From positions 1 through 64,000 of the forward strand of contig JAUVYV010000016.1 of assembly GCA_030602885.1 (NCBI GenBank): a stretch of DNA of 64,000 nt, given 5' to 3'. Below are positions 32,617 through 54,069 of this stretch, one piece after another. Under the pieces are notes generated by a model. It was not told where the DNA came from and did not search any database. It saw only the letters and a program-made list of their open reading frames with translations. Origin of the DNA: Phycisphaerales bacterium. GTDB lineage: Bacteria; Planctomycetota; Phycisphaerae; Sedimentisphaerales; Anaerobacaceae. Each line of letters begins with the position of its first letter. Positions within the stretch are counted from its first letter, which is position 1. The translations under genes and the position numbers were made by a program.

Positions 32617-33054
32617 TCAGGATTGAAGCGGTGTTTGCTTTTGTTTCTCCCTGGGCTGAGACGACCCAATATCCGGTTTCACCCGCTGTTCCACGTTAAC
32701 GATAGTGATTCCGCCGCTCGCCCGGGGCTTACCATAGAAAATGGCTACCTGTTCAACAAACTTCAGCAACATCTCCATCTTGCTGGTGACGTGGATTCTC
32801 CGGTAAATGTTGCGTAAGTGGGTCTTGACGGTGCCACAGGCTATCCTGAGACGTCTTGCAATCTCTTCGTTGGCAAACCCTCGGCATACGTGTCTTGCCA
32901 CCTGCAGCTCACGAGGACTCAACCGGTAGCGACGCTGCACGTAGAGCCACTGTCGTTCGTCAAGCAAAGTCACATCGGGCCTCCTATACAGCGACTCTTC
33001 GTCGCCTCTATCAGTTCTGCCGACTGTTTTTGTTGATTGCGACGGTTTCGACAT
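32617..33054 (-). CDS. LuxR-type DNA-binding regulator (145 aa)
   Basis: A compact transcription regulator with a GerE/LuxR helix-turn-helix: LSPRELQVARHVCRGFANEE and then IARRLRIACGTVKTHLRNIY, containing the conserved E-x-A-R-L-x2-S/C-x-G-T-V-K-x-H recognition helix. There is no receiver or autoinducer domain, so the signal is not evident. ATG 33054 lies one base after the stop codon of the 1391-residue TPR gene, with GAGGA inside that gene's end, so translation is probably coupled. It closes the exopolysaccharide operon and may control it or the PEP-CTERM genes nearby (inference). Confidence 0.88.
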   Translation of the reverse strand: MSKPSQSTKTVGRTDRGDEESLYRRPDVTLLDERQWLYVQRRYRLSPRELQVARHVCRGFANEEIARRLRIACGTVKTHLRNIYRRIHVTSKMEMLLKFVEQVAIFYGKPRASGGITIVNVEQRVKPDIGSSQPREKQKQTPLQS

Positions 33055-33055
33055 A

Positions 33056-36000
33056 TCAAGTTCCTCCACCAGACAACTGCTCAAGCAGCCGCTGTGCCTC
33101 GGTAAGGTCTTCGGCACCCAGAGCCGGAGATTCACTATTCAACTGCATACTTTTCCTGAGATTCTCAACAGCCTGCTGTTTCTGCCCGAGCTGCGCCAAA
33201 GCTCTTGCAAGGTGAAAATGTGAGGCCGCCAAGCTCGGTGTGCCGGTCGGATATAAGCCTATGCACTCAGTAAAGTCCTTCGCCGCCTTGTCAAACTGCC
33301 CAAGGTGGTAGTATGCGACACCTCTGGTATCGATAAGGTCAACATAGTCCGGCGCCTTTTCAAGCCCACGCCGGGCAAGTTCAAGCGCCCGTTGACACTG
33401 CCCTTGTTCTTCACAGAGTATCCACGCAAGATTGTTGATGGCGACCGAACTATCAGGCTGGAGCTCAAGAACCCGTTCGTACAACGTTACGGCTTCTGCC
33501 GAGCGCCCGGCGGCCTGGAGCAACATGCCAAGCTGCATCATTGCAAGCACGGAACCGGCGTCTCGACTCAAAACACCGCGCAGCAAGTCCTCGGCTATCT
33601 GTCCGGCCTCGCTGTCTTTAGCTCCGGCAAGCTCACCGACGATAAGGATAGTCGTTCGTATCTCACTGGGATGACCTTCACGCCAGATGGTAACCTTTTG
33701 GCGCAACCGGCTCCAGAGTTTGTCGTCCCGCAACAGTCTGACCTGCGCCAACAGCGGGCGGGGGTCGTTCGGCTCCGAATCGTACAACCCTTGTAGCATT
33801 TCCTCTGCCTCGGTCTTACTGCCGCTGTTATACAGCGCTGTGGCAAGAGCCAACTCGATCCTGCGCTGCTGCGACGCGTCTGCAGAAGAAGCGAGCTGCC
33901 TGCTGAGAAGATTTACTGCATCGTTATATTTATCCGCGGCCACGTATGCCTCAGCCAAAGAGACTACGGCATCTATGTCGTTGGGGTCGAGCTCCAGCAG
34001 GGCCCTCAGAGTCGGCAGCGCCAGCCGTGGCGACCTCGCCGCTTCGCCCCTGGCCTTTAGCAACAGCAGGGATTTATCATCAGGCCTGTGAACAAGACCA
34101 CGCAAGGCAACATCTATCACCTTCGCCGGTTTTGCCTCCTGCAAAGCAATTTGCGCCAGAAGCACCCAGGCCTGTCCAACCTCCGGGTGCTTTTCGGTTA
34201 TGGACTGAAGAGTACCTGTGGCCTGTTCTATGGCCGGAGCCGTCCCTTTTGCAAGCAACAACAGGGCTTTCTGAAGGCGTAGCTCCACATTTTCAGGATT
34301 GGCCTCCAGCGCTCTATCAAGAACCTGCTCGCCGGCTTGGCGTATCTGAGTATCGTCGGATGCCAGATAGAGAGAGACGGCGGCTTTTTGGATTTGTATG
34401 TTGGCCGGCATTAGAGATAGCGCCTGTCGTATGTCTGAAATTGCCCTGTCCGACTCGCCAAGCGAGCGGTGAAAAATGCTCATAGCAACCCAGGCATCCG
34501 CACTGTTGGGTTCCATCGTGACCGCCTGTTCAAAATCCCGTCTTGCCTTCTCGGCCCGGCCCAGTAAAGCACGTGTTCTGCCGCGCAGCAGATATGCAGT
34601 TGCAGTACCCAGCTTGTTTACCATTTCGTCACAAAGCAGCAAGGCCTCCTCAGGCGCGCCTACGCGAATGTTCAGATCGATCTGTGCCGCCATAACCGGC
34701 ACAGAATTTGGCTCTTCAATTCTCAGCCTGTTCACCAGTTCCTGCGCCTCGGCAAGCTTGTCCTGACGGATCTTGAGCAGTGCAAGGGACAGACACACGG
34801 AACGGTTGTTGGGGTCTTTGGCCAATATGTCCTCCAGGATATCATCTACAGAAGCGAGGTCGCCGCGCCTCAGGGAACTTTGCAGCTTCAGCCGTTCCAG
34901 TCCGGGATGGTAAAGCTTCGCTTTTGCCGCCTGTCTGAGAATTTCGTCCGCACGGTCATATTCAGCCGCCTCGTATAACGCTGCAACCAAAGGGACAATG
35001 ATGCGAATGTTCCGGGGCGAACGCTCGAAAGCCTCCGTGTAAGTTGAAACTGCCAGCCGAATCGCGCCGGCGCGCTCGTGAGTCGCAGCCAGAAGCATCC
35101 GACTGGTCTGATCATCAGGATTAGCAAGAAGATTCTCCTGGAGAAGCGGGGCGATTTGAGGATATCGACTTTTGAAATCCTCCTGGACAAACCAAACCCT
35201 TGCCTGTTCGTATCGCCACTGCCAGCCGTCATCGCCCTCGATGCTCCTGATGTTGTCAACGACTTGCTGGGCGCGGTCGGTGTCCCTTAGAACCTGCTCA
35301 CATGTCAATAACTTGCGCTGCACGATAAGATCGTCCTGTAGCTCTTTTGCAAGCGAGTCGAGCAGTGAATAACGCTTTCCGCCCTCATTCCAGCGACTGT
35401 AAATGTCGCTTAGCAGTAAGCCCAGTTCTCTTTTTGTGGAAGGCTGTCCTGCAGATGCGAGGGCATTGTTAACCAGATTCTCGCATTCCTGACGCTCTGC
35501 CTTTGTTGCCAGCAGGGCAACGAGATATCTTAGAACTGCTGTGGACTGCGGGAATTCTCCATGAGCCTGGCGTAGTCCTGCGATTGCGTCATCGGTTCTG
35601 CTCTGTGCAACGAGTAAGTCGGCTTCGGCCAAAGCGACCGTGATTTCGGCCGGATGCGTTTTCTTCAAATCGGCTAATAATTTTTCAGCGGCGGGCAAGT
35701 CGTCCCGCTGAACGGCAAGATGAAACTGCAACATTTTGACTTCGAAGGCGCCGTTAGTGGCTTCGTCGAGTTTATCCAGCGTCGCTTCTATATCACGATA
35801 TAACGCTGAATCCTTGTCTGTTTGGCTGCCTGCAAGCAATTGTAATCTCGCTCGGGCATCCAACAAATCTGCATCGCCGCTGCGCGGGTCAAGCTGCTTT
35901 GCCATACGAGCTTGTTCCGTTGCTTCAGCCCATTGACCTCTGTCGGCCAGCAGTCTCGCAAGGGCCATACGTGCGCTGAAAAGATTCGGTTGTTCTGAAA

Positions 36001-37231
36001 CGAGAGTCCGCAACTGATTGATGCCTGACTGCTTGTCACCAAGCCGCCATAGCGCATTGGCCAGTGCGATTTGGACCCTCGCAGATTTGGCCCCCAACTG
36101 AATTGCTCGACGCCAGCACTTGACAGCTTGGTAACTTTGCCCCTGGTTTTCAGCCAAAAGCCCCTCCAGAAAAGCTGTCGTCGCAGGAGCAATATCCTTT
36201 TGGCGCATCATAGAGATACACTCGCCGGCACGCTCATACCGGCCGCACCTGATAAACAGCTCCGCAGCATAGCGCATGAAATCCCAGGGTTGAGACGAGA
36301 GCTCTTTTAGTCCGGTCTCTGCAACTTGCAACAAACGATCGTCTGAGCTCGATTTAAGGGCAAGCTGCGCCCATAGCTGCCAAAGAAGCTGGTTGTCAGG
36401 CTCCAAAGTCTGAACAATCTCGAGCTGTTTCTGAGCACGGTCCAGAGCGTCCGCATTAATCAACTGCTCGGCAAGCCGAAGCCGTGCAGCCGAATCGGAC
36501 AAGTCCTTTTGTTCTGCCTGCGCCAAATCAGCCAACGCATCAGACTTGCTTCGTTGCCTTAGATAGTACGCTGCGCGAATAATGTAGGCCTCCGCCGACG
36601 ATGGGTTCGTCTTTACCGCCTGGTCGAACCAAAAATTAGGATCTTCGGAGAAGTCCTCAGGGCGCTGCTCAGCCAGCCGACCCAATACGTCATAGGCCGA
36701 TACCTGCTCGGGATTCTTCTCGATGAGACCTTTGAGCTCTTTCGCCGCCTCGGTGAATTTTCGCTGGTTTGCCAGGGCAATTGCCAAAATCCTTCTTAGT
36801 TCCGCTGACTCGCCTATTTGCAGTGATCGAGCAGCAATCAGCTCAGCTTCTCCAGGCATACCCATACTTAGATACATTTCACTGAGCTGCCTGGCGGCTT
36901 TAAGGCTGCTTTGGTCCAATCGCAAAACGTTTCTATATGCTGCTATGGCCTGCTGAACGTTACCGCGTTGCAGAGGTCTGATATTAAGCTGTGCCTCGGC
37001 ATACTTGAGCATGGCCGGCACATCATCCTGTACAACACCGAGATAACGGCCAAGCTGCTTTGCAGCTTCCTCCCATCTGTTCTCGTCATACGCCTTATTA
37101 CCGAGAAGAAGGCCCTGCTCTGCTCTCCTGCCACGTTGCCACTGCCTTACTCCGTACCCGGTCGCCCCCAGAACCAACAATCCCAGCAGAAGAACCAGTG
37201 CCAGTTTCCAGTTAAAGTACCTTCTTGCCAT
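33056..37231 (-). CDS. Large TPR protein of the exosortase/EPS locus (1391 aa)
   Basis: One N-terminal membrane helix (about residues 9-27, LALVLLLGLLVLGATGYGV) followed by more than 25 TPR-like helical pairs over the whole length. Clear examples are NPSSAEAYIIRAAYYLRQRS and PDSSVAINNLAWILCEEQGQ. Very long TPR proteins (for instance PrsT-type) accompany PEP-CTERM/exosortase loci and are thought to organise polysaccharide assembly; this one fits by position and architecture but I cannot claim the specific subfamily. No enzymatic domain. It probably extends into the periplasm. It follows the sugar-transferase gene by 34 bases. Confidence 0.88.
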   Translation of the reverse strand: MARRYFNWKLALVLLLGLLVLGATGYGVRQWQRGRRAEQGLLLGNKAYDENRWEEAAKQLGRYLGVVQDDVPAMLKYAEAQLNIRPLQRGNVQQAIAAYRNVLRLDQSSLKAARQLSEMYLSMGMPGEAELIAARSLQIGESAELRRILAIALANQRKFTEAAKELKGLIEKNPEQVSAYDVLGRLAEQRPEDFSEDPNFWFDQAVKTNPSSAEAYIIRAAYYLRQRSKSDALADLAQAEQKDLSDSAARLRLAEQLINADALDRAQKQLEIVQTLEPDNQLLWQLWAQLALKSSSDDRLLQVAETGLKELSSQPWDFMRYAAELFIRCGRYERAGECISMMRQKDIAPATTAFLEGLLAENQGQSYQAVKCWRRAIQLGAKSARVQIALANALWRLGDKQSGINQLRTLVSEQPNLFSARMALARLLADRGQWAEATEQARMAKQLDPRSGDADLLDARARLQLLAGSQTDKDSALYRDIEATLDKLDEATNGAFEVKMLQFHLAVQRDDLPAAEKLLADLKKTHPAEITVALAEADLLVAQSRTDDAIAGLRQAHGEFPQSTAVLRYLVALLATKAERQECENLVNNALASAGQPSTKRELGLLLSDIYSRWNEGGKRYSLLDSLAKELQDDLIVQRKLLTCEQVLRDTDRAQQVVDNIRSIEGDDGWQWRYEQARVWFVQEDFKSRYPQIAPLLQENLLANPDDQTSRMLLAATHERAGAIRLAVSTYTEAFERSPRNIRIIVPLVAALYEAAEYDRADEILRQAAKAKLYHPGLERLKLQSSLRRGDLASVDDILEDILAKDPNNRSVCLSLALLKIRQDKLAEAQELVNRLRIEEPNSVPVMAAQIDLNIRVGAPEEALLLCDEMVNKLGTATAYLLRGRTRALLGRAEKARRDFEQAVTMEPNSADAWVAMSIFHRSLGESDRAISDIRQALSLMPANIQIQKAAVSLYLASDDTQIRQAGEQVLDRALEANPENVELRLQKALLLLAKGTAPAIEQATGTLQSITEKHPEVGQAWVLLAQIALQEAKPAKVIDVALRGLVHRPDDKSLLLLKARGEAARSPRLALPTLRALLELDPNDIDAVVSLAEAYVAADKYNDAVNLLSRQLASSADASQQRRIELALATALYNSGSKTEAEEMLQGLYDSEPNDPRPLLAQVRLLRDDKLWSRLRQKVTIWREGHPSEIRTTILIVGELAGAKDSEAGQIAEDLLRGVLSRDAGSVLAMMQLGMLLQAAGRSAEAVTLYERVLELQPDSSVAINNLAWILCEEQGQCQRALELARRGLEKAPDYVDLIDTRGVAYYHLGQFDKAAKDFTECIGLYPTGTPSLAASHFHLARALAQLGQKQQAVENLRKSMQLNSESPALGAEDLTEAQRLLEQLSGGGT

Positions 37232-37265: not shown

Positions 37266-38999
37266 TCAGAACTGTCTCACAAAGTTCTTGGCCATCTTAA
37301 CGGCTGTCCGCCGGCATATCCACAAATCGAGTTTCAGTGACAGTTTCCTGACATACTTGACATCATAATAAATCCACTCTTGAAAATCCCTCATCGGCTG
37401 CCGCGTCCTGCAAACCTGCCAGAGTCCCGTGATACCGGGCCTGACGGACAGCCGAGCGTCCCGCCAGAACGGACATAACCTGTTTTCACTTTCAGGAGAC
37501 GGCCTCGGACCCACTACACTCATCTGCCCCAACATGACATTGATAAACTGAGGTATCTCGTCGATATACGTCTCACGCAAAAACCTCCCAACAGCGCTGA
37601 GGCGCGGGTCATTCACTACCATAAACTGGGGCCCGTCAGCCTCGTTCAAAACCCGAAGCCTGTCCTGCATTCTGTCGGCGCCAACCTGCATAGTTCTGAA
37701 CTTTAGACACTCAAACGTCCGACCGTGCAAGCCCTGTCGCACATCCCTGAAGAATATCGGCCCGGGAGAGGTCAGCTTTATGGCGAGCATGACTATCGGC
37801 AGAACAGGGGCAAACAGGATCAGCACAACTACCGCCACAACAATATCCAGAACCCTTTTCAAGAACCTCGCGTACGAGAATCTCGACCATTCTCGGAAAT
37901 TGTTCCGGCGCAAATCCTGTTGCGCACGGGTCGATTCCGGGCATGCCGCCGCACCTGCCGGCCGCGAGAGCTGATTTTCATCCCCCTGCGAATCCGTGAT
38001 AACCCTCTCTTCGATGAACGAACCGGCCTGCACTGACACACCGGGGCTAATAACAGATGCCCTTACCACGGCCCCGGTGCCGATTTTAACATCATTGCCG
38101 ACTATCGTCGGGCCAGCTATTATCGCGTCTTCATCGATGTTGACGCGTTTGCCAAGCAGTATCTTGCCGAATAACCCTGCACTGTCCGCTATGACAATAT
38201 CGTCGGCCTTGTTGTTACCACGCGAGTAGTCTGCACAGTAACGAGAGAGCCCTGCGCCGGAACCCAGTTTTCGCTGCACTAACCTCAGCAAACCATTTTC
38301 TGTAGCCAGATCCAGCACAGAACCTCCGACATCGGTGCTGCGCACGACGAGCGACTTTGAATAACATAGCTCAACTAACTTGCCGAACGCCAAAGGCAAA
38401 CCACCTTCCATCAAGAGCTTGTTCAGCGCGCTGGTCCTTACAAAGAGATGATGGGGCCAGTCATCGGGTATCGGAGTCGGCTGGGTTGCGTCTTCATAAA
38501 ACAACCGAAACCCAACAAAGTCGTTCTGCAAAGTGGTCAGAACCTTCTCGTACGAAGCTTGCATCTGAGCAACTATATTGACCGCTACCACATCCGCCTG
38601 ACTATCAGCGAGTGTCTCGCAGATTAGACGATTATCCACTGTCGTAACAAACCTTCCGTCTGAAATAACGACCCAGGAATGGTCGCGAAAAGGCCTTGTC
38701 GATTTGAAACCCACAGACAGGGGCTCCGTATAGCGGACAACATTCAACCTGCCCGTTACATCCGGGACGATCCACTGCTGCGGAATCGCTATCTTACCCC
38801 TGCCCCTGCGAAAGCCGGCACCGTCACTGAGACAGCCAAGAACGAAGCCGGCAAATGGCTCATTGCACACCATAAGTCGCAGCAGGTCGCGGCCACTTTT
38901 CGCCTGCCGGCCGCTCCTGTCGCGCAGAACAACCAGATTCCTGTTAACACGGGGTATAATTCTCATAACGCGTTTGTCTATAAGACAGTTAGCTGTCAC
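37266..38999 (-). CDS. Bacterial sugar transferase with N-terminal nucleotidyltransferase-like/LbH module (577 aa)
   Basis: The C-terminal ~200 residues (380-577) are a classic polyprenyl-phosphate hexose-1-phosphate transferase: membrane helix (IVVAVVVLILFAPVLPIVML), SPGPIFFRDVRQGLHGRTFE, KFRTMQ, DEIPQFINVMLGQMSVVGPR and the ending RPGITGLWQV. This adds the first sugar to the lipid carrier at the membrane. Unusually the N-terminal ~330 residues are a degenerate sugar-nucleotidyltransferase-like region (about 1-260) with a hexapeptide (LbH) stretch (IDEDAIIAGPTIVGNDVKIG, 288-307). Typical members have extra membrane helices there instead. It overlaps the Wzc-like gene by 4 bases (ATGA) and is translationally coupled. 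Confidence 0.92.
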   Translation of the reverse strand: MTANCLIDKRVMRIIPRVNRNLVVLRDRSGRQAKSGRDLLRLMVCNEPFAGFVLGCLSDGAGFRRGRGKIAIPQQWIVPDVTGRLNVVRYTEPLSVGFKSTRPFRDHSWVVISDGRFVTTVDNRLICETLADSQADVVAVNIVAQMQASYEKVLTTLQNDFVGFRLFYEDATQPTPIPDDWPHHLFVRTSALNKLLMEGGLPLAFGKLVELCYSKSLVVRSTDVGGSVLDLATENGLLRLVQRKLGSGAGLSRYCADYSRGNNKADDIVIADSAGLFGKILLGKRVNIDEDAIIAGPTIVGNDVKIGTGAVVRASVISPGVSVQAGSFIEERVITDSQGDENQLSRPAGAAACPESTRAQQDLRRNNFREWSRFSYARFLKRVLDIVVAVVVLILFAPVLPIVMLAIKLTSPGPIFFRDVRQGLHGRTFECLKFRTMQVGADRMQDRLRVLNEADGPQFMVVNDPRLSAVGRFLRETYIDEIPQFINVMLGQMSVVGPRPSPESENRLCPFWRDARLSVRPGITGLWQVCRTRQPMRDFQEWIYYDVKYVRKLSLKLDLWICRRTAVKMAKNFVRQF

Positions 39000-41302
39000 A
39001 AAACCGAATCATCCGGTTTTTGCCCGGGTTTATCCATAGGCAGTAACAAAGGTCGTCCGGCGGCGTTTCTGGCGCTTTGTGCCGCGCGCCCGCCCTGCGC
39101 ATGATAGTCGTATCCATAACGGTAGTAACTATGGCTGACTGGAACGTTGCTTAGGACAGTTCCCAGTATTCTCACACCTATCTCAGAAAGTCTCTCCTTT
39201 GTCTCTTTGAGGTCCGGCGAGGTCGTATGGCCGGCAAAACCCGTCAGTATGACAGCACCTGCCATCTTCGCCCACAAAAGGGCGTCGGGAAATGCCAGCA
39301 CGGGCGGGCTGTCAATAATCACGTGATCGTACTTCTCGCCAATTTTGTCTATCTGCTTCGCCGCCTGAGGTGAAGCCAACAACTCATAAGGGTCGGTCGA
39401 ACTGTGCGAATCCGCTGCAAGCACATGCAAACCGGCGGAAGACACAACACAGACAGCATCCTCAAGTAGTGTGCTTCCTGAAAGTACATCCTGCAGATAT
39501 CTTGAGTCTCTCGGAATGTCCAGCAGACGTCCAATATCAGGTTTTCTCAGGTCGCCATCTACGAGCAGTACCTTCTTGCCGGACCTGGACAGACTTGTGG
39601 CAAGGTTAATGGCAAATGTGGTTTTGCCGTCGCGCATACTCGGACCGGTAACAACCAGTTTCTCAGGCATCCCTCCACCGTCGAGCAATCCGAGGTTGGC
39701 ACGAATTGTCTGATAGTCCTCGGCCATCTGTCTTGAGAAAAGAGCTTTCTTACCCGTTTGCAGGCTTGTGGTGGTACCGATTATCCGAATTCCAATACGT
39801 CTGACCACATCCTCAGGAGTGTGCACGCTAAGATCCGCTTTGTCCCTTAGAATAGCTGCAACCACTCCGCAGGCCAGCGCGCCAAATACAAGAGCCATAG
39901 TGTACTTGACTCGTTTATCCCGAACGCTGGCAATATCCGCATTATAGGCAATGGAAACCCGCGCAGGACGCTTTCGTTCCATTTCCAATTCCTGTATGCG
40001 CCGCCCCATCGTACCATAAAGCTCTTTCGTTGAAGCCAACTGGTCTTCAATCTCGTCGATAGCCAACTGCTTTCGTCCAAGCTCCACTGTCTGCGTATCC
40101 TCCTTTGCCAGTATTTCCCGAAGCCGGTTCTCATAAGCCAGCGTCTGCTTGAGCTGCAGTCGTGCACCGGTCAGCTTCTCGTTGTTGACCTTATCCACCT
40201 GCTTAGACATCCGCTCGTCGAACTTCTTGCCCACCTCCCGGCGTTTCTCGTCGAGTCGCAATTGGAATGCCTTTACGAACTCCTGTTTCTGCAGCAGCAG
40301 AGGGTTGCCCTGCACCATCATCTGTCCGGAAAGAATCTGGTCCTGCTCCAGCTGCGCCAGTTGCCTGGTTATCTCCTGCACGGTAATGTCCGCGTTTATG
40401 TATTCCTCACGCATCCTCATTAGCTCATCCGGCGGCGAACTCGGCTTGTTCTCCTCAAGCAGCTTAATCTGTGTCTCCAGATTCATCCTTTTCGCTTCCG
40501 CCTTTGTCAGTTCGCCCAGCAAACTCGATACACGCTGCAGCATCATATCGTGCCGGCCGTCCAGCGTAACGCTTCCATACTCCTGACCAAGCTGCCCAAT
40601 CGCCTCTCGCTGGTTCTCGAGTTTCTCGGCCAGGACCTTCCGCTCATTCTCAAGAACGGTCAGTTTTTGACCTTGCCCCCGCAGAGAACTGGCGACTTCG
40701 ACGAGCATATATGCCTGAATAAAAGCATCTACAATCCTCTTTGCTTCTTCCGGTTTGTCGCTTTTGGCCGTAACTTTTACCAGTTCGGTATTACGAATAG
40801 CAGCAGACGTGATTATGCCGTCGTATTTCGCCTGTTTCAGTATGTTTGCCGGATCGGGCTTGGTCTTGGTGTTCTCCAGTTTGCGTCTCAACTTCGCACC
40901 AATGCCGCTGGCCTGGTCTTCAAAAAATGTCAGATTCTTGCCTGCCAAATCATCTGCCACCCTTTGGACTACCTGTGGGCTGAGAATCATTTCCGCCTGC
41001 GTATTCATGAAGCTTTGGTAATTCGATATTTCGCCCTTGTCCGCCTCGCCGGTCAGGATATTCGACAGAATGGGAGCAACTTTTATTGCACCGGTCACAT
41101 CATACAAAGGATCAATCAACAACCATATTGCAGGAATTCCGATCGCGCACATTACAAGGAACGTAATCGCCACAATGTACCAGCGGCGAAGCACAGCAGC
41201 GGCCAACGCTGATGTGGAATCACTTGCGGACTCGGGGGGCATTTCAAAATTAGCTGGGCTGCGTTCAATCAACTCGCCATCATACTTTTCTATAGTGTTC
41301 AT
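38996..41302 (-). CDS. Chain-length determinant / tyrosine autokinase (Wzc-like, 768 aa)
   Basis: A polysaccharide co-polymerase fused to a bacterial tyrosine kinase. Two membrane helices (about 40-62 and 478-497) flank a long periplasmic coiled-coil region (about 200-440). The cytoplasmic kinase has a Walker A (GPSMRDGKTTFAINLATSLS), Walker A' (VLLVDGDLRKPDIG) and Walker B (HVIIDSPPVLAF). The C-terminus carries a tyrosine cluster (SYYRYGYDYHAQ) for autophosphorylation. It controls chain length and export, normally with a Wza-type lipoprotein such as the one at 26508. Spacing to the upstream exosortase gene is 48 bases. Confidence 0.94.
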   Translation of the reverse strand: MNTIEKYDGELIERSPANFEMPPESASDSTSALAAAVLRRWYIVAITFLVMCAIGIPAIWLLIDPLYDVTGAIKVAPILSNILTGEADKGEISNYQSFMNTQAEMILSPQVVQRVADDLAGKNLTFFEDQASGIGAKLRRKLENTKTKPDPANILKQAKYDGIITSAAIRNTELVKVTAKSDKPEEAKRIVDAFIQAYMLVEVASSLRGQGQKLTVLENERKVLAEKLENQREAIGQLGQEYGSVTLDGRHDMMLQRVSSLLGELTKAEAKRMNLETQIKLLEENKPSSPPDELMRMREEYINADITVQEITRQLAQLEQDQILSGQMMVQGNPLLLQKQEFVKAFQLRLDEKRREVGKKFDERMSKQVDKVNNEKLTGARLQLKQTLAYENRLREILAKEDTQTVELGRKQLAIDEIEDQLASTKELYGTMGRRIQELEMERKRPARVSIAYNADIASVRDKRVKYTMALVFGALACGVVAAILRDKADLSVHTPEDVVRRIGIRIIGTTTSLQTGKKALFSRQMAEDYQTIRANLGLLDGGGMPEKLVVTGPSMRDGKTTFAINLATSLSRSGKKVLLVDGDLRKPDIGRLLDIPRDSRYLQDVLSGSTLLEDAVCVVSSAGLHVLAADSHSSTDPYELLASPQAAKQIDKIGEKYDHVIIDSPPVLAFPDALLWAKMAGAVILTGFAGHTTSPDLKETKERLSEIGVRILGTVLSNVPVSHSYYRYGYDYHAQGGRAAQSARNAAGRPLLLPMDKPGQKPDDSVL

Positions 41303-41350: not shown

Positions 41351-43333
41351 TCACCGTCTGATTATAACTGTTTCTTGTTTCACCGGGGCCGTTGTCAGTT
41401 TTGCCAAAAGCCAGAGTTCACCAACTACTATCGCAAGGGCCAATGGCATCATTGCATATCCCCCGAAGTCATGAAATATCTTCTCCCAATGTTCCCCCTT
41501 AAGTATCGTAAAAGCAACCGCAGTGATTGCCAGGCGCACGGTGTTACAGAGCAGAGCAATGGGCAGGCTGGAAGCGAAGACCATCAGCTTCTCCCACCAC
41601 ACGCGCTCGACGAGCAATACCACAAGACCGCTAATCACAAAGAACGCAGTGATCATCCTCAATCCATTGCACGCCTCCGCCACCGCAACCGTTGCATCAC
41701 CGATATGAATGATATTACCTTCCCGCACAACTTCGTAGCCCATCACCTCCAGACAGAACATCGCAGATGACGTCGCCCAGCTCTGTAGAGGCAGCGCGAC
41801 AGCAGCTTGAACCCGATTTGGCCAGGGTAACATCAGCAACAGGAACAACATTATGGGAGATACTTTTCGGAAAAGTTCCCAGCCAAACAGAAGCAAGACC
41901 AATGCGGCAATACTCAAAACAATTGATAGCCTCTCTGCGGAACCATACATAAAGAACAAGCCGAAGAGTCTCACCGCCTGAGCCGCCACAAACGCAAACA
42001 AACCCCAAATTGCAGGCCCTATTCGAACTCGGCGAATGTCGCCGCGCCTCGACCACAGGATATAACCAGCCAGAAAAGGAACTAAAAGCCCGGAAGAATA
42101 CTCGTCACTCCTCTGGCATATGCTCCACAGGTCCACAATGCCAGGCCAGTATGACCAAAGAAAAGCAATTACGATTAGCGCGGCTGCGAACCAGCGAAAG
42201 ATTCTTTTTTTCTCCGCGCACATACATTGTGGCAATCTTCTGCTTACCCTGTCCAACTGAGGTACGAGCCGGGATTGCAATCTGCCGGCCCCTTCTTCCA
42301 CTATCCTTGACATTCTACCGACAAAGCTCTCCAACTTTCCTTTCGGCTGGAACGCGACAGGTTTTCCCTCCACGACGCTATTACCTGGCACAACCGCCTG
42401 GTAATCAACCACACATCGTTGAATCTCGCAGTTCTCGCCTATCTGCGAATCGTCCCAAAGAACGCTATTGGCTATGAGACTATTCTTTCCGATATTTGTG
42501 TTGCGGCCAATTATTGTTGGTCCAAAAATAACTGCTCGGTCTGAAATATTAGCTCCATCCATAATTACAGCCGGCCCATAAATTCGAGCACCTGGGTCGA
42601 CCTCGGCGCTATCGGCCAGCCAGATATCTTTTGAGCCGTTTAGCTTTTTACGGTGAAAGCCTATGCTTTCATCGCTGCAGTTTGCCAGATAGTTTGCAAT
42701 AGCATCCAAATATCCGGCTCTGTCTCGAAAGTTTCCTGTGGGCTGAGTCAGCGTCGCGGTGTGTATGGTTCTGCCTGCCCGCAGCATTGTGGGAATCAGG
42801 CCTTCCTTGATATCGCAGTAACCTTGCTTGGGAATATACTCAAGGACGGAAGACTCACAAACATAAATGCCTGACATGGCATCTTGCGTACCGTCGCTTC
42901 CAGGGCCGGGGCCAAGCACAACTGTTAAATCAGACTTGCCGGCTCGGTGGGCTCGTATGAGCTTGTCAATATCCGGCACAGATACAATCGCAGCATGGAA
43001 CACTACGAACAAAGCATTTGTCTGGCCGTTAGCGGCGTCTCGGACACATCCGGCGGTGCCGACCGGTAATGGTTCATCCAGGAACTTTAATTGCATCGAA
43101 CTCACCGTGGTGATGGATTTTTTCAGCAGTAGAGCATCTTCATTGGAACAAACAGTTGCCTGCTTTATCCCCTGACGGGATAAATGACGCAACAGATGTT
43201 CAATAACTGGCCTGCCTGCCACCGGCCACAGTGCTGTAGGCAAACGCGATGCCAGAGGACACCTGCCAAAATCCCGACTCCCCGCCAGTATAATAGCTTT
43301 AACGTTTTGTTTATTTATGCGTTGCTTACTCAT
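41351..43333 (-). CDS. Exosortase fused to degenerate nucleotidyltransferase-LbH module (660 aa)
   Basis: The C-terminal part (about 380-645) is an exosortase, the multi-pass cysteine protease/transpeptidase that processes PEP-CTERM tails. It has the catalytic triad in family context: Cys555 (VAEACNGLRM), Arg600 (ALLCNTVRL) and His621 (IFHDFGGYAM), among about eight membrane helices. The N-terminal part resembles NDP-sugar pyrophosphorylases (residues 10-225) plus hexapeptide repeats (240-325, IIGRNTNIGKNSLIANSVLW). Key catalytic features are changed: the usual LPK of the signature is LPT (residues 31-33) and the metal-binding Asp segment reads FVVFHAAIVS (109-118). The module is thus probably inactive and may bind sugar-nucleotide or partner proteins (inference). 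Free-standing exosortases lack this part. Confidence 0.92.
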   Translation of the reverse strand: MSKQRINKQNVKAIILAGSRDFGRCPLASRLPTALWPVAGRPVIEHLLRHLSRQGIKQATVCSNEDALLLKKSITTVSSMQLKFLDEPLPVGTAGCVRDAANGQTNALFVVFHAAIVSVPDIDKLIRAHRAGKSDLTVVLGPGPGSDGTQDAMSGIYVCESSVLEYIPKQGYCDIKEGLIPTMLRAGRTIHTATLTQPTGNFRDRAGYLDAIANYLANCSDESIGFHRKKLNGSKDIWLADSAEVDPGARIYGPAVIMDGANISDRAVIFGPTIIGRNTNIGKNSLIANSVLWDDSQIGENCEIQRCVVDYQAVVPGNSVVEGKPVAFQPKGKLESFVGRMSRIVEEGAGRLQSRLVPQLDRVSRRLPQCMCAEKKRIFRWFAAALIVIAFLWSYWPGIVDLWSICQRSDEYSSGLLVPFLAGYILWSRRGDIRRVRIGPAIWGLFAFVAAQAVRLFGLFFMYGSAERLSIVLSIAALVLLLFGWELFRKVSPIMLFLLLMLPWPNRVQAAVALPLQSWATSSAMFCLEVMGYEVVREGNIIHIGDATVAVAEACNGLRMITAFFVISGLVVLLVERVWWEKLMVFASSLPIALLCNTVRLAITAVAFTILKGEHWEKIFHDFGGYAMMPLALAIVVGELWLLAKLTTAPVKQETVIIRR

Positions 43334-43357: not shown

Positions 43358-44008
43358 TTATACATCACCTCCAATGGCAATAAATGTTTCTGCCATGAAA
43401 GTTACTCTCTGTTTAATGATTTTGCTGTTGGGGAAACAAATTTTCATTTCGCGTGCATTCATGAGTCTAAAACCATCATGTTTTATTCCAAACATATATT
43501 TCTTGCGAACATGATTGTAACTGATAATTCTACCAGCCCAAAGATATGATTTGCCTGGCAGCCACGTAACAAAAGGCAGCCGCATATGAAATTCGAAAGG
43601 ATACCACCGATTAGGTGTTGTCACGAACCATCGCTTTCCCACTCGCATAATTTCAGCAGCCATCTGTTTTTGCTTCTCAAAATCACCTACGTGTTCAATT
43701 ACAGCGTTGCTGTAAACAATGTCAAAATGCTTATTAGGCCAAGGTAATTTGCAGGCATCTCCAACCGTTGCCTCAATTTCTGGATAGTATTGCCTTATCA
43801 TGAATATATGTTCAGATGAAAGATTAATAGCACAAAGATTGGTTTTCCATGGATAGGAATCAATAAGTTGCAATCCCCTGTCACCATCAGGGTTTATTTC
43901 AGCACCAATATCAAGGACTTTCATTTGCCCGCTCGGCTTCATAGTCCTGTTAAATAACTCCAATTTACGCTTGCGGCTGATGTAAGATAATTTATCGAAC
44001 AAACTCAA
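43358..44008 (-). CDS. SAM-dependent methyltransferase (216 aa)
   Basis: A class I methyltransferase. Motif I reads VLDIGAEINPDGDRG (about 31-45) and motif IV/post-I DIVYSNAVIEHVGD, the pattern of Methyltransf_11-type enzymes. No membrane segment. In this locus it probably methylates a sugar residue of the polysaccharide or a lipid-linked intermediate. It starts 2 bases after the Alg13-like gene and the sequence from here onwards is visibly more AT-rich than the exosortase half of the operon. Confidence 0.88.
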   Translation of the reverse strand: MSLFDKLSYISRKRKLELFNRTMKPSGQMKVLDIGAEINPDGDRGLQLIDSYPWKTNLCAINLSSEHIFMIRQYYPEIEATVGDACKLPWPNKHFDIVYSNAVIEHVGDFEKQKQMAAEIMRVGKRWFVTTPNRWYPFEFHMRLPFVTWLPGKSYLWAGRIISYNHVRKKYMFGIKHDGFRLMNAREMKICFPNSKIIKQRVTFMAETFIAIGGDV

Positions 44009-44010
44009 TT

Positions 44011-44508
44011 TTATTTTGCTCCTTGATTTTTGCTCGATAGATTTAAAAACGTGGCTATTCTATCAGCAACTATCTTTGTCTGTTTTTCTCTTGGCTGAGG
44101 TACAAAAGATTTCAATTGTTTGATCTTCTCCGGTATTTCGTCTTCTGTGTTCGCAACTAATATATGTCCGAGTTCCTCAAACTTTCGTGCAATAGCAAGC
44201 TGATGATCATTTACCACCTCTCCATACTTTTTTAATCTTGGCATAACAAGCAGTGGCTTCTTGTTATCCAATGCCATCGTTATCGTACCAATCCCAGCGT
44301 GGCTGATTATACCTGATGCTTCTTTCAAGTATTTATCAAACGCTTTCTTCTCTATAGATGCCACTGATTCAAAGTTGCGTGGCTGATATGAACTGTCGCC
44401 GATTTGCGCAAATATCTCCTCTTCAAACCCGTTCTGGCTGATTATATCATCAACCGATTTTACCAGACGATCAAATGGAAATTGAGTTCCAACAGTCAGA
44501 AAAATCAT
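44011..44508 (-). CDS. Alg13/PssE-like glycosyltransferase subunit (165 aa)
   Basis: The catalytic half of a two-subunit GT28-type glycosyltransferase. The N-terminus MIFLTVGTQFPFDRLVKSVD and the block SHAGIGTITMALDNKKPLLV are the family's hallmarks (the nucleotide-sugar site). It overlaps the Alg14-like gene by 4 bases, the arrangement seen for PssD/PssE pairs. Together they add a sugar (in known pairs GlcNAc or glucuronic acid) to the lipid-linked precursor on the cytoplasmic side of the membrane. Confidence 0.92.
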   Translation of the reverse strand: MIFLTVGTQFPFDRLVKSVDDIISQNGFEEEIFAQIGDSSYQPRNFESVASIEKKAFDKYLKEASGIISHAGIGTITMALDNKKPLLVMPRLKKYGEVVNDHQLAIARKFEELGHILVANTEDEIPEKIKQLKSFVPQPREKQTKIVADRIATFLNLSSKNQGAK

Positions 44509-44978
44509 ATCACCGCACCGGCATATTCAACATTTTTATATTGCTCAGCAAGCTCAGGCCACTGAACCAGAAAAAGGTCAGATATATGCCTGACTATTCT
44601 CCCTGAAAGAGATATCTGCTGCACATTGGCAATACTATCAATCCAAATCACTTTTGCACCTGTGATTTTACCTAAGAAACAAACCATACAACCCGGGGCA
44701 GCACCTGTACTGAACAGCACATCAGGCCTTTCTCGCAAAACAATCCTGATACATCGAAACAACACCTTTACCACTCGTATCGGATGGTTTCGATTGCACT
44801 CTCCAATAACATATACTTTGCCATATTGCTCAAGTCTCTTTCGGGCAACCTCCGTTGTCGTCACGCAAAAAGTGCCATATCCATTCCAGCTATCAGAAAG
44901 CTTAAGTAATTGTGTCAGATGTCCACCAGCAGAGGCAGCAAGACAGATTTTTATCTGCTTCTTAGTCACTAATTCCAA
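44505..44978 (-). CDS. Alg14/PssD-like glycosyltransferase subunit (157 aa)
   Basis: The membrane-recruiting partner of the Alg13-like protein. The start IKICLAASAGGHLTQLLKL contains the AGGHL signature; VLFSTGAAPGCMVCFLGKIT and WIDSIANVQQISLSG follow in the usual order. The start is uncertain: TTG 44978 and GTG 44969 are both in frame, and both lie inside the last codons of the upstream glycosyltransferase. Coupled translation is likely. Length is normal for the family. Confidence 0.92.
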   Translation of the reverse strand: MELVTKKQIKICLAASAGGHLTQLLKLSDSWNGYGTFCVTTTEVARKRLEQYGKVYVIGECNRNHPIRVVKVLFRCIRIVLRERPDVLFSTGAAPGCMVCFLGKITGAKVIWIDSIANVQQISLSGRIVRHISDLFLVQWPELAEQYKNVEYAGAVI

Positions 44979-46161
44979 TACCCTTCAAATTCACATCTTC
45001 ACTGAACAATTCACTTAATATCATTTGTGCCTTACTTTCCCATGAGGCCTGTTTTACTTTATCACGTCGGGCAGTAACTTTTTCCGAGCAATCCTCAAGT
45101 AGAGCCTGTTTAATCCTTTCTGCAAATTCTTTAGAATTTTCAGCAAGATATATTACTTCCAAATATCTTTGGGCCTCAGAAAAATATGGTGTACACACCA
45201 ATGGTTTACCTAAAGCCAGATATTCTTTAATTTTTATCGGATTAGAAGCTTCGGTCCAACGATTATTCGCCCATGGTAAAATGGCAACATCAAAACACTT
45301 GCCATAGTCAGGTATTTGGTAATAATCTTTTTGGCCTAATTTCCAAACATTCTTCAAATCAAATAATGAATCGTACTCTTCATGAACCGTTCCAATAAAC
45401 ACAAAAGACATCTCCGGCAATATTTTTGCTACTTCTTCAACTAATGCAATATCAAAACTATGATCATAAATTGCACCAAAATATCCAACTATCGGTAATG
45501 GTATATCAGCAATATCACTAGGAGTGTTTTTGACTTCCTTAGCTGAAGCAAATAATTCATAATCAACACCATGGTCCAGAAATAATGGTTTTCGACACTG
45601 GCCAGATTCATCCTCGTACAATTTTGTGTTTACAAAAATCGTTAAATCTGCTTTGGATTTCAACAAATGGTCGCAACGTTTAATAACATTCACATCAACT
45701 CCATCTGCCTCTTCAAACCTGTCTGTTCTTTGATATACCAAAGCTCTTTTCTGCAACTTTATCGCCACATCTACTGCCGCAGGGTTTGCAACTAATACTA
45801 CTGGGTTCTTTATACCCAATCTCCATGAGACCACCTTTATCTGCATGTATAGAATAACATCATTTAGATACTTCGCCCATCTGATATGATGAACAGGCAA
45901 TGAAAAAGGACTATACACCCAAAATCCTTCTTCAGTCTTTTTGAGGCCTGCAAAAATACTTTTTAGCTTACGAACCGCTTTTTTGAAAAAGGCACCTTTT
46001 TCACCTGTAGTAAACTTTGTCATTATAATGGAATTGATGTATAAAGTTTTACCGCACTTAGCAAACTGCCTAGCCAACTGTGGATCTATATGTGCGCGAT
46101 TGTGGTACCACCAGTCGATGCCGCCAAAAATCATATAAGGAACAGCTTTTTGAGATTTCAT
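44962..46161 (-). CDS. Glycosyltransferase, GT4/GT1-like (399 aa)
   Basis: A GT-B fold glycosyltransferase of the exopolysaccharide locus. It starts KAVPYMIFGGIDWWYHNRAH and has the C-terminal donor-binding pattern NPIKIKEYLALGKPLVCTPY, which corresponds to the E-x7-E region in a relaxed form. No membrane segment. It overlaps the Alg14-like gene by 17 bases and follows the CapK-like gene by 10 bases. Donor and acceptor cannot be inferred. The N-terminal motif resembles teichuronic-acid/TuaH-like transferases but I am not confident of that. Confidence 0.85.
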   Translation of the reverse strand: MKSQKAVPYMIFGGIDWWYHNRAHIDPQLARQFAKCGKTLYINSIIMTKFTTGEKGAFFKKAVRKLKSIFAGLKKTEEGFWVYSPFSLPVHHIRWAKYLNDVILYMQIKVVSWRLGIKNPVVLVANPAAVDVAIKLQKRALVYQRTDRFEEADGVDVNVIKRCDHLLKSKADLTIFVNTKLYEDESGQCRKPLFLDHGVDYELFASAKEVKNTPSDIADIPLPIVGYFGAIYDHSFDIALVEEVAKILPEMSFVFIGTVHEEYDSLFDLKNVWKLGQKDYYQIPDYGKCFDVAILPWANNRWTEASNPIKIKEYLALGKPLVCTPYFSEAQRYLEVIYLAENSKEFAERIKQALLEDCSEKVTARRDKVKQASWESKAQMILSELFSEDVNLKGIGISD

Positions 46162-46171
46162 TCAAACCCTC

Positions 46172-47521
46172 CTACAGGCGATCGACCTGTCCTTCTATTT
46201 TAGACAGAACAGGCTTGAGCCTGCCACAATCTGTTTTCTTGACTATTTTAACCTTTTTAAAGTCAACTTTTAGTTCGCCAGGTAGATGTTTGGCTATCAA
46301 AGATTTAAAGTTGTTCATATCCTGTACAGAAAAGTTTTCGGTTGGCACATATTGTATTGTGATATGGCCTAAAGTATCCTGGACTATCTGGCTTTCAAGT
46401 ATATGATCTGTACCATATAACAAATGCGTTAGAATCGCTGCACCAAATTCTCTTCCAGACGGTGTTCTAATTGAATCGGCTTGTCTGCCACTTATGGATT
46501 TGATTACCTGAAATTGCCTTCCACAGGAGCAACTTTCCTCTGATTTCACTACTATATCACCCGTGTCATACCGAACAAACGGCATGGCATAATTCCAAAA
46601 GCCACTGGAAACTATTCTGCATATGTTCCTGTTTAAACTATCCACAGGTATAAGCTCAGTGAGGCCGTATTCAGGAATGATATGATAGCTTCCTCTTTCA
46701 CATGTAAAGATATAGCATATCCTTTCTGCACCGCCATAAAAATCAAACACTTTGCAATTGAATGCTTCGACTATGGTTTTACGCATCGAATCTGTCAGTG
46801 TTTCTGAAGAGGTTAGGGTCGACTTCAATTCGAGTTCAATGCCAGCATCCAAACATGTTCTGGCTAACAAATATACTGCCGATGGGTACCCAACTACAGC
46901 CTTAACTCTGTATTTTTTCATCACCATTGCGAAATTCTTAGCAGACTTTGACGAAAGGTGATAAGTAGAAAGAATCAATTCTTTCATGATCGGATCATAG
47001 GCATACAATTTGTTAGCTTTCTGGTCTGGTTTCACCACCAATCTGCCGGTAAGATAAGCACAACGATCGTTAAATCCTATATTTGCCCAATCCCATTGTC
47101 GCCGAACAAAGGCGTGTTCATTTCCGATTGAAAACAGGTTTCGATAAATACGCATCGGTGTACCTGTTGTCCCTCCAGTATAAGCCTTCCGTAATAGTAG
47201 CTTTGGATATCTTTTTGAAAGGATTGAGTCACCAGCTCCTAACACATTTCTCTTGCTGATTATCGGAAACCTATTAATGTCTTCAAGAGATTTAATATCC
47301 TCGGGTGCAATTCCCAACCTGTCCATAATTTGCCTGTAGTAAGGTACTGAATCGTAGCAGTGCCTAATAAGTCGCTGCAATAAATTCAGTTGTATCTGCC
47401 TTATTTGCTTATCGCTTAACCATTGTGACTTTTCCAACCATTTTCGCCGTAGCCAGAATGGCCCGGCAAAACGCCTGACGGCCAGATTCAACATTCCGCT
47501 TGATATTACTTTAAGATTCAT
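46172..47521 (-). CDS. CapK/PaaK-like adenylate-forming enzyme (449 aa)
   Basis: Belongs to the phenylacetate-CoA-ligase-like family, often named CapK in capsule loci. Visible: the AMP-binding P-loop YTGGTTGTPMRIYRN (about 114-128), DFYGGAERICYI and YDTGDIVV with CSCGRQFQVI, the metal-ligand cysteines. Members activate carboxylic acids as adenylates; in polysaccharide loci they are thought to attach acyl or amino-acid groups to sugars. No companion acyl-carrier gene is seen here. Start ATG 47521 follows the GT2 gene by 15 bases. Confidence 0.9.
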   Translation of the reverse strand: MNLKVISSGMLNLAVRRFAGPFWLRRKWLEKSQWLSDKQIRQIQLNLLQRLIRHCYDSVPYYRQIMDRLGIAPEDIKSLEDINRFPIISKRNVLGAGDSILSKRYPKLLLRKAYTGGTTGTPMRIYRNLFSIGNEHAFVRRQWDWANIGFNDRCAYLTGRLVVKPDQKANKLYAYDPIMKELILSTYHLSSKSAKNFAMVMKKYRVKAVVGYPSAVYLLARTCLDAGIELELKSTLTSSETLTDSMRKTIVEAFNCKVFDFYGGAERICYIFTCERGSYHIIPEYGLTELIPVDSLNRNICRIVSSGFWNYAMPFVRYDTGDIVVKSEESCSCGRQFQVIKSISGRQADSIRTPSGREFGAAILTHLLYGTDHILESQIVQDTLGHITIQYVPTENFSVQDMNNFKSLIAKHLPGELKVDFKKVKIVKKTDCGRLKPVLSKIEGQVDRL

Positions 47522-47536
47522 ATGGCTAACATTGTT

Positions 47537-48478
47537 TTACCAGTACTTTACGCCCACAAAAAACACTCTTCTTATACCAGTCAAATAGATTCGCGATCTG
47601 TCAAGGGCCTGCTTTCTTTTTTTGCCATTAATGATTGCTATAGCAAGCCAGATAGGAATGCGAATCACAAAAAACATAATCGTTAGGAAACAAGCAACCT
47701 TATATTTCAACCAGCCGTGATGTTTTTGTATAAACTTCAAAATGCTCAAACGTAGTTCAATCAACATCTTCCCAGATACCTGAGCCGTGCTTTGTCCGCC
47801 AAAATGAATAATCTCACCCACCGGAGCAAATCTGATATCCCAGCCAGCCAGCCGGAAACGATAGCACCAGTCGGCCTCTTCGGCATACATAAAAAATTCT
47901 TCATCCATCAACCCTACCTGGTCAATCGCTGCACGTCGAACAAGCATAAAACATCCCTTGATTGCCTCTACGCTTATTTCTTCATCGAAATTGCACCAAG
48001 TCATCCATTGCCTGCCGAAAAAACGACTCTTTGGAAAAAGCTTATGTAAATAGGAACTTGAGAGGAACATATTCAGCAAAGAGTCATACATAAAGCAGGA
48101 CCGCTGCAATGTTTTATCCGGGTTCAACACTCGACAGCCCACCACCGCTACTTCCGGATACATATCGGTAAAATCAACCACTTTTTCAATCGCCTTATCC
48201 AGCACAATTGTATCGCTGTTCAGCAGCAGCACATACTTGCCCTTGGCAATCTTTATCCCTTGATTATTCGCGGCGGCAAAGCCACGATTGTCATTATTTT
48301 CTATAAGAATCACATTGGGAAAATCACGCTTGAACACCTCAACTGAATCATCAGAAGAGGCGTTATCAATCACAATCACTTCGCAATTGTTTTTTCCCGG
48401 CTGACTATATATTGACCTCAAACAATCACAGATAATCTGCTGTGTATTCCAGTTGACTATTATAATTGAAACCTGCAA
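47537..48478 (-). CDS. Glycosyltransferase family 2 (313 aa)
   Basis: GT-A fold transferase related to rhamnosyltransferases. It starts SIIIVNWNTQQIICDCL, has the nucleotide-sugar/metal motif LLNSDTIVLD and the later EEADWCYRFRLAGW acceptor-side block. The C-terminus has one or two hydrophobic segments (YKVACFLTIMFFVIRI) that may attach it to the membrane. It follows the polymerase gene by 10 bases. Confidence 0.93.
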   Translation of the reverse strand: MQVSIIIVNWNTQQIICDCLRSIYSQPGKNNCEVIVIDNASSDDSVEVFKRDFPNVILIENNDNRGFAAANNQGIKIAKGKYVLLLNSDTIVLDKAIEKVVDFTDMYPEVAVVGCRVLNPDKTLQRSCFMYDSLLNMFLSSSYLHKLFPKSRFFGRQWMTWCNFDEEISVEAIKGCFMLVRRAAIDQVGLMDEEFFMYAEEADWCYRFRLAGWDIRFAPVGEIIHFGGQSTAQVSGKMLIELRLSILKFIQKHHGWLKYKVACFLTIMFFVIRIPIWLAIAIINGKKRKQALDRSRIYLTGIRRVFFVGVKYW

Positions 48479-48488
48479 TTGTATTTCC

Positions 48489-49790
48489 CTATAGATTAGT
48501 TTTTACAGCCAAACCATTTTTATAGACACAATCACTTAAGACCACACAAAGGCCTAATAATATAAAAAAGCATGTTATCGGCTGGCCAAATAATGACACC
48601 GTCATCATCGCAACCAGAGTCCCGCACATAGACGAAGCCAAACACCAAACCAATTTATTATCATATAGACTATTTGCATTGTGAAATGCAGAAACAATTT
48701 GTTTGACAGATTCAATCACTAATAGAATAAACGGAACTAAGCCAATTAAGCCATACCGACTCAAAACCAAAATATAATGATTTGTAATGTCTGTGATATT
48801 TGCCCCTAATTTTGGCCCCCACCCTGGATCTGCGAAACCATATCCGGTAAACCAATGACCACGCATGCCACCTTCGAAAAGTGCAATATTAATAAGTTTA
48901 CTTCTATGCCAGGCAGTTGCGGAATTGAATGTAAAGCTGCCTAATAAATCATAAAAATGCCGATTGCTGGCGATTTCCACAAAAGTACATATTATGATGA
49001 TTATTACAGCGGATGTCTTCCAGTATTTCCGCCAACGATAAAAAACAAGAAAGGAGACGGATAATATTGCGGCAAGAAAAGGCCCTGCGGACATAGATGA
49101 AAAAACACCTATAGCCATCAATCCCAGGCCTGTTATGATAAGTTTTTGGTGTTTCTTGGCGTTATTCAGCAATATCGCACAGACAGGCCCGAACATCGCG
49201 AAAAACAAACCGTACATAATTGACATCGAGAAGGTCACCTCTGCGCGAAATAAACCATAGCGGGGCCAAAGAAGATCACCGGCGTTTTTCCACGCGTGAT
49301 ATTTTCGTAAAAAACCGACCGGATTGACACTCGTTATACACTGGTAAAAACCTGCGATTGCCAAAGGAGCAGCGATAATCAGAACTCCCTTGAGTAATGA
49401 TAAATATTGTTCTCTTTTAGTTATTATCCGTCGCACAGCAAAATAGGGCAGCACCATATCAAAGAACGCCCCTGCACGATTTTCGAGGAACTGTGACATA
49501 GGTGTTGTCACGCTCATCGCTAATAGCTGGCATAGGAAATACATGATCACCAGCTTGTCAAGCCAGATAAACCGGAATTGGTTTGCTAAATTGGTCTTAA
49601 GCAGGAAATTAACGTATATCGCCAGAATAACAATTCTTGTAACCGTAAAATCGATGGTACCTACCGGCACCGTAAGGTAAGCCGGATACCACGCAAGTGT
49701 TGCGATATAAATGGTTAGCCCATAGACAGGCCGCAGACAAAACACTAACACACCGGCTGCTAAGGCGATTGTGAGGGTAACTCCTTGCAT
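48489..49790 (-). CDS. Wzy/O-antigen-ligase-like polymerase (433 aa)
   Basis: A multi-pass membrane protein (about 11 helices) with the large periplasmic loop typical of Wzy polymerases and WaaL ligases. The loop includes MRGHWFTGYGFADPGWGPKL and NITDITNHYILVLSRYGLIG, the family pattern GxGxxxx...HNxyL..x...G. It probably polymerises repeat units brought out by the flippase at 54070. Family members are too divergent to name the linkage. The neighbours on both sides are glycosyltransferases. Confidence 0.9.
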   Translation of the reverse strand: MQGVTLTIALAAGVLVFCLRPVYGLTIYIATLAWYPAYLTVPVGTIDFTVTRIVILAIYVNFLLKTNLANQFRFIWLDKLVIMYFLCQLLAMSVTTPMSQFLENRAGAFFDMVLPYFAVRRIITKREQYLSLLKGVLIIAAPLAIAGFYQCITSVNPVGFLRKYHAWKNAGDLLWPRYGLFRAEVTFSMSIMYGLFFAMFGPVCAILLNNAKKHQKLIITGLGLMAIGVFSSMSAGPFLAAILSVSFLVFYRWRKYWKTSAVIIIIICTFVEIASNRHFYDLLGSFTFNSATAWHRSKLINIALFEGGMRGHWFTGYGFADPGWGPKLGANITDITNHYILVLSRYGLIGLVPFILLVIESVKQIVSAFHNANSLYDNKLVWCLASSMCGTLVAMMTVSLFGQPITCFFILLGLCVVLSDCVYKNGLAVKTNL

Positions 49791-49811
49791 AGGATTCTCA
49801 TATTCCTCTGT

Positions 49812-50834: not shown

Positions 50835-50888
50835 AACTCACTTATCGACATTGACTCACTGACAAATACATTCGCCCAACGTGTGATC

Positions 50889-54047: not shown

Positions 54048-54069
54048 TTCTCCCCCAAGTACGCTGGTT

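Follow-up and report, generated by a model that had tools for sequence, protein, structure and literature searches.

A single gene in the stretch of DNA analysed here (64,000 nucleotides at the start of contig JAUVYV010000016.1 from the Phycisphaerales bacterium assembly GCA_030602885.1; hereafter, the window) joins an exosortase, a membrane enzyme with a presumed role in sorting proteins to the cell surface, to a sugar-nucleotidyltransferase-like module that appears to be catalytically dead yet maintained. A sister module is found on the first enzyme of polysaccharide synthesis encoded in the same operon, and this pair provides a concrete, testable physical link of protein sorting to polysaccharide synthesis. 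Next door to the fusion are genes for a few candidate substrates that carry a dedicated C-terminal tag. To our knowledge, the reason for the placement of exosortase genes in exopolysaccharide loci is not known. We consider it about an even chance that the protein described here is a tag-specific exosortase whose pseudo-enzyme module docks at, and possibly gates, the polysaccharide-initiation machinery. Exosortase systems themselves are already known; what is apparently new is an exosortase that carries a pseudo-enzyme module, has a sister module on a phosphotransferase and uses a tag of its own.

The fused gene and its exosortase domain

The fusion gene, P0001 (41351–43333, minus strand), encodes 660 amino acids in a single frame that begins with an ATG at 43333 and contains no internal stop codons. 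A preliminary description of this DNA, which gave no strand, had noted the continuous 660-codon frame and had divided it into an NDP-sugar-pyrophosphorylase-like start, left-handed beta-helix (LbH) hexapeptides and a full exosortase. All three parts were recovered by Pfam, as NTP_transferase at residues 12–146 (E = 2.5e-10), LbH_EIF2B at 236–323 together with Hexapep at 278–309, and Exosortase_EpsH at 389–643 (E = 2.4e-55). The nucleotidyltransferase (NTase; GT-A/Rossmann-like) domain, which lacks the catalytic residues, spans residues 11–218 (42680–43303) according to Pfam and the fold match; the LbH domain, visible in Pfam and as strands in the structural model, spans residues 227–322 (42368–42655); and the exosortase domain spans residues 389–643 (41405–42169), all on the minus strand.

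The intervening linker (residues 330–380; 42194–42346, minus strand) is variable, has the highest dN of the protein and falls below a pLDDT of 50 across most of residues 330–372, as expected between domains. Chance and assembly error are excluded because the same single frame spans both parts in other genomes, many of them independent, which rules out a chimeric join or a frameshift. A basic stretch (approximately residues 364–381) lies directly ahead of the first membrane helix. Basic residues mark the cytoplasmic side of membrane helices (the positive-inside rule), and the stretch is consistent with a cytoplasmic module.

By its sequence, the membrane domain is a complete exosortase. It scores 188.1 bits against PF09721 (cut-off 25.7) and 137.3 bits against TIGR02602 (cut-off 105.55), and the Cys555, Arg600 and His621 triad, recognized in the preliminary description, is invariant in 42 full-length homologues. 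Among the matches listed (the best 25 of 40), P0001 falls below the cut-off of every named exosortase subtype, with 164.4 of 400 bits for XrtD, 140.3 of 425 for XrtW and 134.5 of 208 for XrtA. The same genome encodes, on contig C122, another exosortase that is not fused. A related stand-alone exosortase type, 41–44% identical, occurs in the same family (L049, L050, L051, L052 and L038), with a TPR gene near some of the copies.

The degenerate NTase-LbH module

Modelling of the N-terminal domain, as proposed in the preliminary description, placed it nearest to the GDP-mannose pyrophosphorylases. The AlphaFold model of P0001 (pLDDT 77, pTM 0.50) consists of the NTase and LbH domains, the disordered linker and a helical membrane domain. 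The nearest solved folds to its module are GDP-mannose pyrophosphorylases, including the GMPPA/GMPPB complex, and eIF2B-epsilon (Z 28–30 over ∼ 313–325 residues); Z reached 29.9 to both Arabidopsis VTC1 and GMPPB, and the VIA-align superposition on 7x8j_A (Z 29.9) had an rmsd of 3.2 over 316 residues. The best LbH match, PF25084 (LbH_EIF2B), scored 52.2 bits, slightly below the cut-off of 54.

Residues were counted in 87 modules at the contact positions of VTC1 (PMC9168903), transferred through alignment to solved GDP-mannose pyrophosphorylases; that paper writes Asp80 and the aligned PDB sequence shows Glu at position 80. The catalytic Lys of the pyrophosphate loop is kept in only one module of 87, with the GxGTR...K loop replaced by GSRDFGRCPLASRLPT in the window, and the metal-binding Asp residues (VTC1 D111 and D219) are found in 0/87 modules at either position. 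Because of these losses, an active pyrophosphorylase can be rejected as the identity of the module. The two departures that had led to the earlier verdict of a probably inactive enzyme, LPT instead of LPK and FVVFHAAIVS where a metal-binding Asp is expected, correspond in the same alignment to Thr33 and Ala115, and the counts extend that verdict to the whole family. The sugar-contact Asn, the sugar-loop segment and the phosphate loop are also absent from the modules.

Other positions of the module are kept. The base-contacting Gly (G92 in the window) is present in all 87 modules and the acidic base-contact residue (E87) in 82 of them. The position of the catalytic Glu-Lys is taken by an almost invariant Lys-Glu (K176-E177), a conservation for which the search pattern GYxDIKE[GT]L is partly responsible, although relatives found by BLAST or profile searches keep K176-E177 too. 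In close pairs, dN/dS is 0.10–0.35 for the NTase domain, 0.12–0.34 for LbH and 0.08–0.23 for the exosortase, which indicates purifying selection. The combination of lost catalytic residues and a retained base-binding loop is that of a GMPPA-like regulatory pseudo-enzyme, and the best reading derives the module from an NTase-LbH protein of the GDP-mannose-pyrophosphorylase type whose catalytic activity disappeared long ago.

The suggestion that the module senses or binds a sugar nucleotide thus finds partial support: nucleotide sensing is conceivable because the base loop is retained; the sugar, phosphate and metal contacts, however, are gone. In its strongest form, the module would be a GMPPA-like nucleotide-sugar sensor that switches the exosortase and/or the phosphotransferase allosterically according to precursor supply. 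The base contacts kept while catalysis disappeared and the nearly invariant K176-E177 at the catalytic position speak for such a role, as does the non-catalytic GMPPA, which binds GDP-mannose and regulates GMPPB (PMC11228364). Given the missing sugar-contact Asn, sugar loop and phosphate loop, and the share of the search pattern in the K176-E177 conservation, we consider this role unlikely.

At the other extreme, the module might be an oligomerization scaffold only, its LbH domain holding exosortase molecules together without binding a ligand or any particular component of the glycan machinery. LbH domains commonly oligomerize and provide the dimer contacts in GDP-mannose pyrophosphorylases (PMC9168903), and the loss of the sugar, phosphate and metal contacts also speaks for this view. 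However, a bare scaffold would need neither an NTase domain under purifying selection nor an invariant Gly in the base loop, and the module persists without the exosortase beside Wzc and the module-bearing phosphotransferase (see below), all of which makes this explanation rather improbable.

The polysaccharide operon and the spread of the fusion

P0001 is part of a polysaccharide cluster that spans 33056–56280 on the minus strand. The next gene in the operon (38996–41302) encodes a Wzc-like chain-length/BY-kinase protein (TIGR01007, 125.6 bits, over the cut-off) and is followed by P0002 (37266–38999) and by the gene for a PrsT-like TPR protein of 1391 amino acids (33056–37231; TIGR02917, 290 bits, slightly below the cut-off of 312). 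The remainder of the cluster (43358–56280) contains genes for a methyltransferase, an Alg13/14-like pair, glycosyltransferases, a deacetylase-like protein and a Wzx-like flippase, the Alg13/14 and Wzy-type assignments being made by inspection only. All these genes are on the minus strand, as is that for a small LuxR-type HTH protein right after the TPR gene (32617–33135), which weakly resembles the exosortase-associated regulator EpsA.

Exosortase genes are nearly always found in exopolysaccharide loci, and the EpsH/XrtA PEP-CTERM systems share with this cluster a Wzc-like kinase, an initiating sugar-phosphotransferase and a PrsT-like TPR protein, as well as a C-terminal tag that consists of a PEP-like motif, a hydrophobic stretch and a basic end (Haft 2006, PMC1569441). 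The differences are that here a pseudo-NTase-LbH module is present on both the exosortase and the phosphotransferase and that the tag is of the IPAPGA type.

P0002 combines a degenerate NTase-LbH module (residues ∼ 16–336) with an initiating phosphoglycosyl transferase domain (residues 381–569; PF02397, Bac_transf, 195 bits, cut-off 27, E = 1.1e-57); Pfam found only the Bac_transf, LbH and hexapeptide families in this protein. Profile comparison matched the P0001 and P0002 modules with a probability of 99.5% over 8–314, the alignment being confident in the LbH part and weak in the NTase part, where the P0002 module is strongly degenerate. The best structural matches of the P0002 model include PglC and WbaP and also NTase-LbH proteins. 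Its catalytic domain is the same as that of the large monotopic phosphoglycosyl transferases WbaP and EpsZ, from which P0002 differs by its N-terminal module; the activity of such enzymes can be controlled by a dimerization-promoting partner protein (EpsZ/EpsW, PMC12802240). P0002 is a candidate partner of the P0001 module.

Such pairing has parallels in the GDP-mannose pyrophosphorylase family (GMPPA with GMPPB, plant KJC with VTC1), where proteins of the same two-domain fold assemble through their LbH domains and a catalytically dead paralogue stands beside a related partner. In contrast, both bacterial modules appear to be dead, each shares its polypeptide with a membrane enzyme, and the core of the operon encodes no active pyrophosphorylase partner. 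The gamma and epsilon subunits of eIF2B are NTase-LbH proteins that serve regulation instead of sugar activation. P0001 resembles them in this re-use of the fold and in its best LbH match, but lacks their catalytic HEAT-type domain, in whose place stands the exosortase. If the proposed role is correct, the two bacterial proteins would be a counterpart of the regulatory GMPPA and eIF2B pseudo-enzymes in which neither partner seems to be catalytic and each is attached to a membrane enzyme.

The architecture, its conservation and the pairing with a tag are direct observations, whereas the coupling of the exosortase to polysaccharide synthesis is inferred. The P0001 module would be a subunit of the polysaccharide-initiation machinery that docks on the cytoplasmic side and possibly senses a ligand. 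By analogy with GMPPA/GMPPB or eIF2B gamma/epsilon, the LbH modules of the exosortase and the phosphotransferase could form a mixed oligomer, which would place the exosortase beside the enzyme that forms the Und-P-sugar and beside the Wzc-like kinase. In that arrangement, processing of the tagged proteins would coincide with polysaccharide synthesis in place and perhaps also in time. More tentatively, binding of a nucleotide or nucleotide sugar to the retained pocket might gate the complex. In a fuller version, the paired dead modules would form a single cytoplasmic assembly, gated by a nucleotide or nucleotide sugar, that ties the exosortase to the phosphoglycosyl transferase. Cleavage of the PAPGA-tagged proteins, and perhaps their attachment to the growing Und-linked glycan, would require the presence of the precursor, and the operon would encode a dedicated switch, built from pseudo-enzymes, that couples the two processes. 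This version appears doubtful to us.

The gene order is strongly conserved. Among the 38 fused loci whose downstream sequence is long enough, the Wzc gene comes next in all 38 and the module-bearing phosphotransferase is present in 37; stand-alone modules of deep relatives are near a module-bearing phosphotransferase in 16 of 17 cases. This genetic context supports the link to glycan synthesis suggested in the preliminary description. The four fusions in family f19, which have another arrangement, are accompanied by a phosphotransferase without a recognizable module, which cautions against regarding the partnership as universal, and the genes of the operon may simply travel together.

The architecture of P0001 is found in one frame, at 33–68% identity, in about 28 of 60 related genomes. 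Scanning named public genomes for the N-terminal module with the pattern GYxDIKE[GT]L yielded 75 loci, nearly all in metagenome-assembled genomes (MAGs) of Planctomycetota and most of them fused, and a search of the whole phylum added three genomes from another class (family code f57) with the same fusion. Within Planctomycetota, the fusion is old and well conserved; dozens of genomes in this order share it, as do members of a second class. More distant relatives, among them MAGs under the labels Acidobacteria and Gemmatimonadaceae, encode the module as a free-standing protein of 340–500 amino acids in the same setting, and the exosortase, where one is seen nearby (L115, L120, L158 and L167), is a separate gene. 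Within the order, four loci have lost the exosortase domain and retained the module and the operon (L069, L083, L153 and L089, the last in a MAG that holds another fused copy, L125), whereas L078 and L102 proved to be contig-end truncations. The two parts are neighbouring genes in L154. Thus, they are separate in deep relatives and in L154 and fused across most of the order, which refutes the idea that they are always separate genes. Since the module is free-standing in deep relatives and is kept when the exosortase is lost, it would belong first to the glycan operon, with the exosortase attached to it later.

The exosortase and module trees both unite the fusions of Sedimentisphaerales and f57 (support 99/99 and 95, respectively), and neither tree rejects one common origin for these and the f19 fusions over two independent ones (AU p = 0.28 for the exosortase tree and 0.57 for the module tree). 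A functionally neutral fusion, in which adjacent operon genes were joined accidentally and each part works on its own, would account for the variable linker, the separate genes of L154 and the recurrent losses and splits of the exosortase, but is very unlikely in view of the stability of the fusion across an order and a second class and the agreement of the two trees for Sedimentisphaerales and f57.

Literature searches for an NTase-LbH/exosortase fusion found no paper that describes one, and the fusion, for which the preliminary description could name no system, is apparently undescribed; the EpsH fusions reported by Haft (2006; PMC1569441) are those with EpsI and CAAX-protease-like domains only.

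Several loci show further variation. The separate module gene of L154 (7516–8880, minus strand) is interrupted by short repeats (AGSKKQTAENEQV...), and similar repeats are found at the end of the adjoining stand-alone exosortase. In other Planctomycetota (L148, L149, L150 and L168), the dead module that is the best match to P0001 forms a different hybrid, attached straight to a phosphoglycosyl transferase, with no Wzc-like gene of this operon's type nearby. The fusion is also found in two records, L104 and L105, titled Pelotomaculum and Candidatus Kuenenia; both sequences group with Sedimentisphaerales, so that these are probably mis-binned or mislabelled MAGs.

The PAPGA-type tag and its candidate substrates

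Scanning of C-termini in the window identified two candidate substrates just downstream of the TPR gene and some 10 kb from the exosortase gene, a secreted protein with a DUF4114 domain (30569–31300, tag at 30572–30655) and a second secreted protein (29819–30496, tag at 29822–29899), both on the minus strand. They have signal-peptide-like starts, different bodies and near-identical tags of the form IPAPGAI(F/L), 16 residues not spelled out here, and (T/I)L. The tag is unlike the 14 PEP-CTERM matches of the same genome, which are mostly of the VPEP type. A third, weaker PAPGA tag (IPSPSAVVLAGIGVSFVGWLRRRKVV) is found on contig C90.

The PAPGA-type tag pairs with the fused exosortase type across the sequenced relatives. 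It is present in 30 of the 31 relatives that have a P0001-type exosortase (29 with the fusion, G059 without the module and G024 with the related stand-alone type) vs 4 of the 28 that do not (p = 2e-11). Within the window's own family, these figures are 21/21 and 4/14, and a held-out set of 22 genomes of the order, from which the ambiguous genome G260 was left out, gave 13/13 and 2/9 (p = 2e-4). The p values treat the genomes, which are in fact related, as independent, but the pattern holds inside several families. The general PEP-CTERM tag, in contrast, is found in 59 of 60 relatives regardless of the P0001-type exosortase. Among the listed tags that share a contig with the fusion (18 genomes), 37 of 39 lie 9.2–14.3 kb downstream of it on the same strand. 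Thus, as in known exosortase families, the enzyme co-occurs with putative substrates that end in a motif, a hydrophobic stretch and a basic end.

The pairing is not perfect. No tag accompanies the fusion in G057, and tags are found in G224 and G164, where no fused exosortase was detected. The f57 fusions come without PAPGA tags and the f19 fusions with none or with weak matches. Tracking of the tag with the N-terminal module instead of the exosortase is disfavoured because G014 and G020, which have the module without the exosortase, have 0 tags, whereas G059, which has the exosortase without the module, has 11; G224, with the module alone and seven tags, runs the other way. Among the genomes with the related stand-alone exosortase, G024 has eight tags and G245 none.

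Two other open reading frames of the window deserve mention. The one at 31403–32275 (minus strand), between the operon and the genes for the tagged proteins, has no family match and contains an internal LPGVPTATAMVLTGFICISLTRDRRAW that resembles a sorting signal and is followed by more hydrophobic sequence; it is possibly a tagged protein that has degenerated or is otherwise unusual. An ordinary PEP-CTERM protein, presumably for the other exosortase, is encoded at 10723–11286 on the plus strand and ends in IPEPMTIALLGLGGLFLRRRK.
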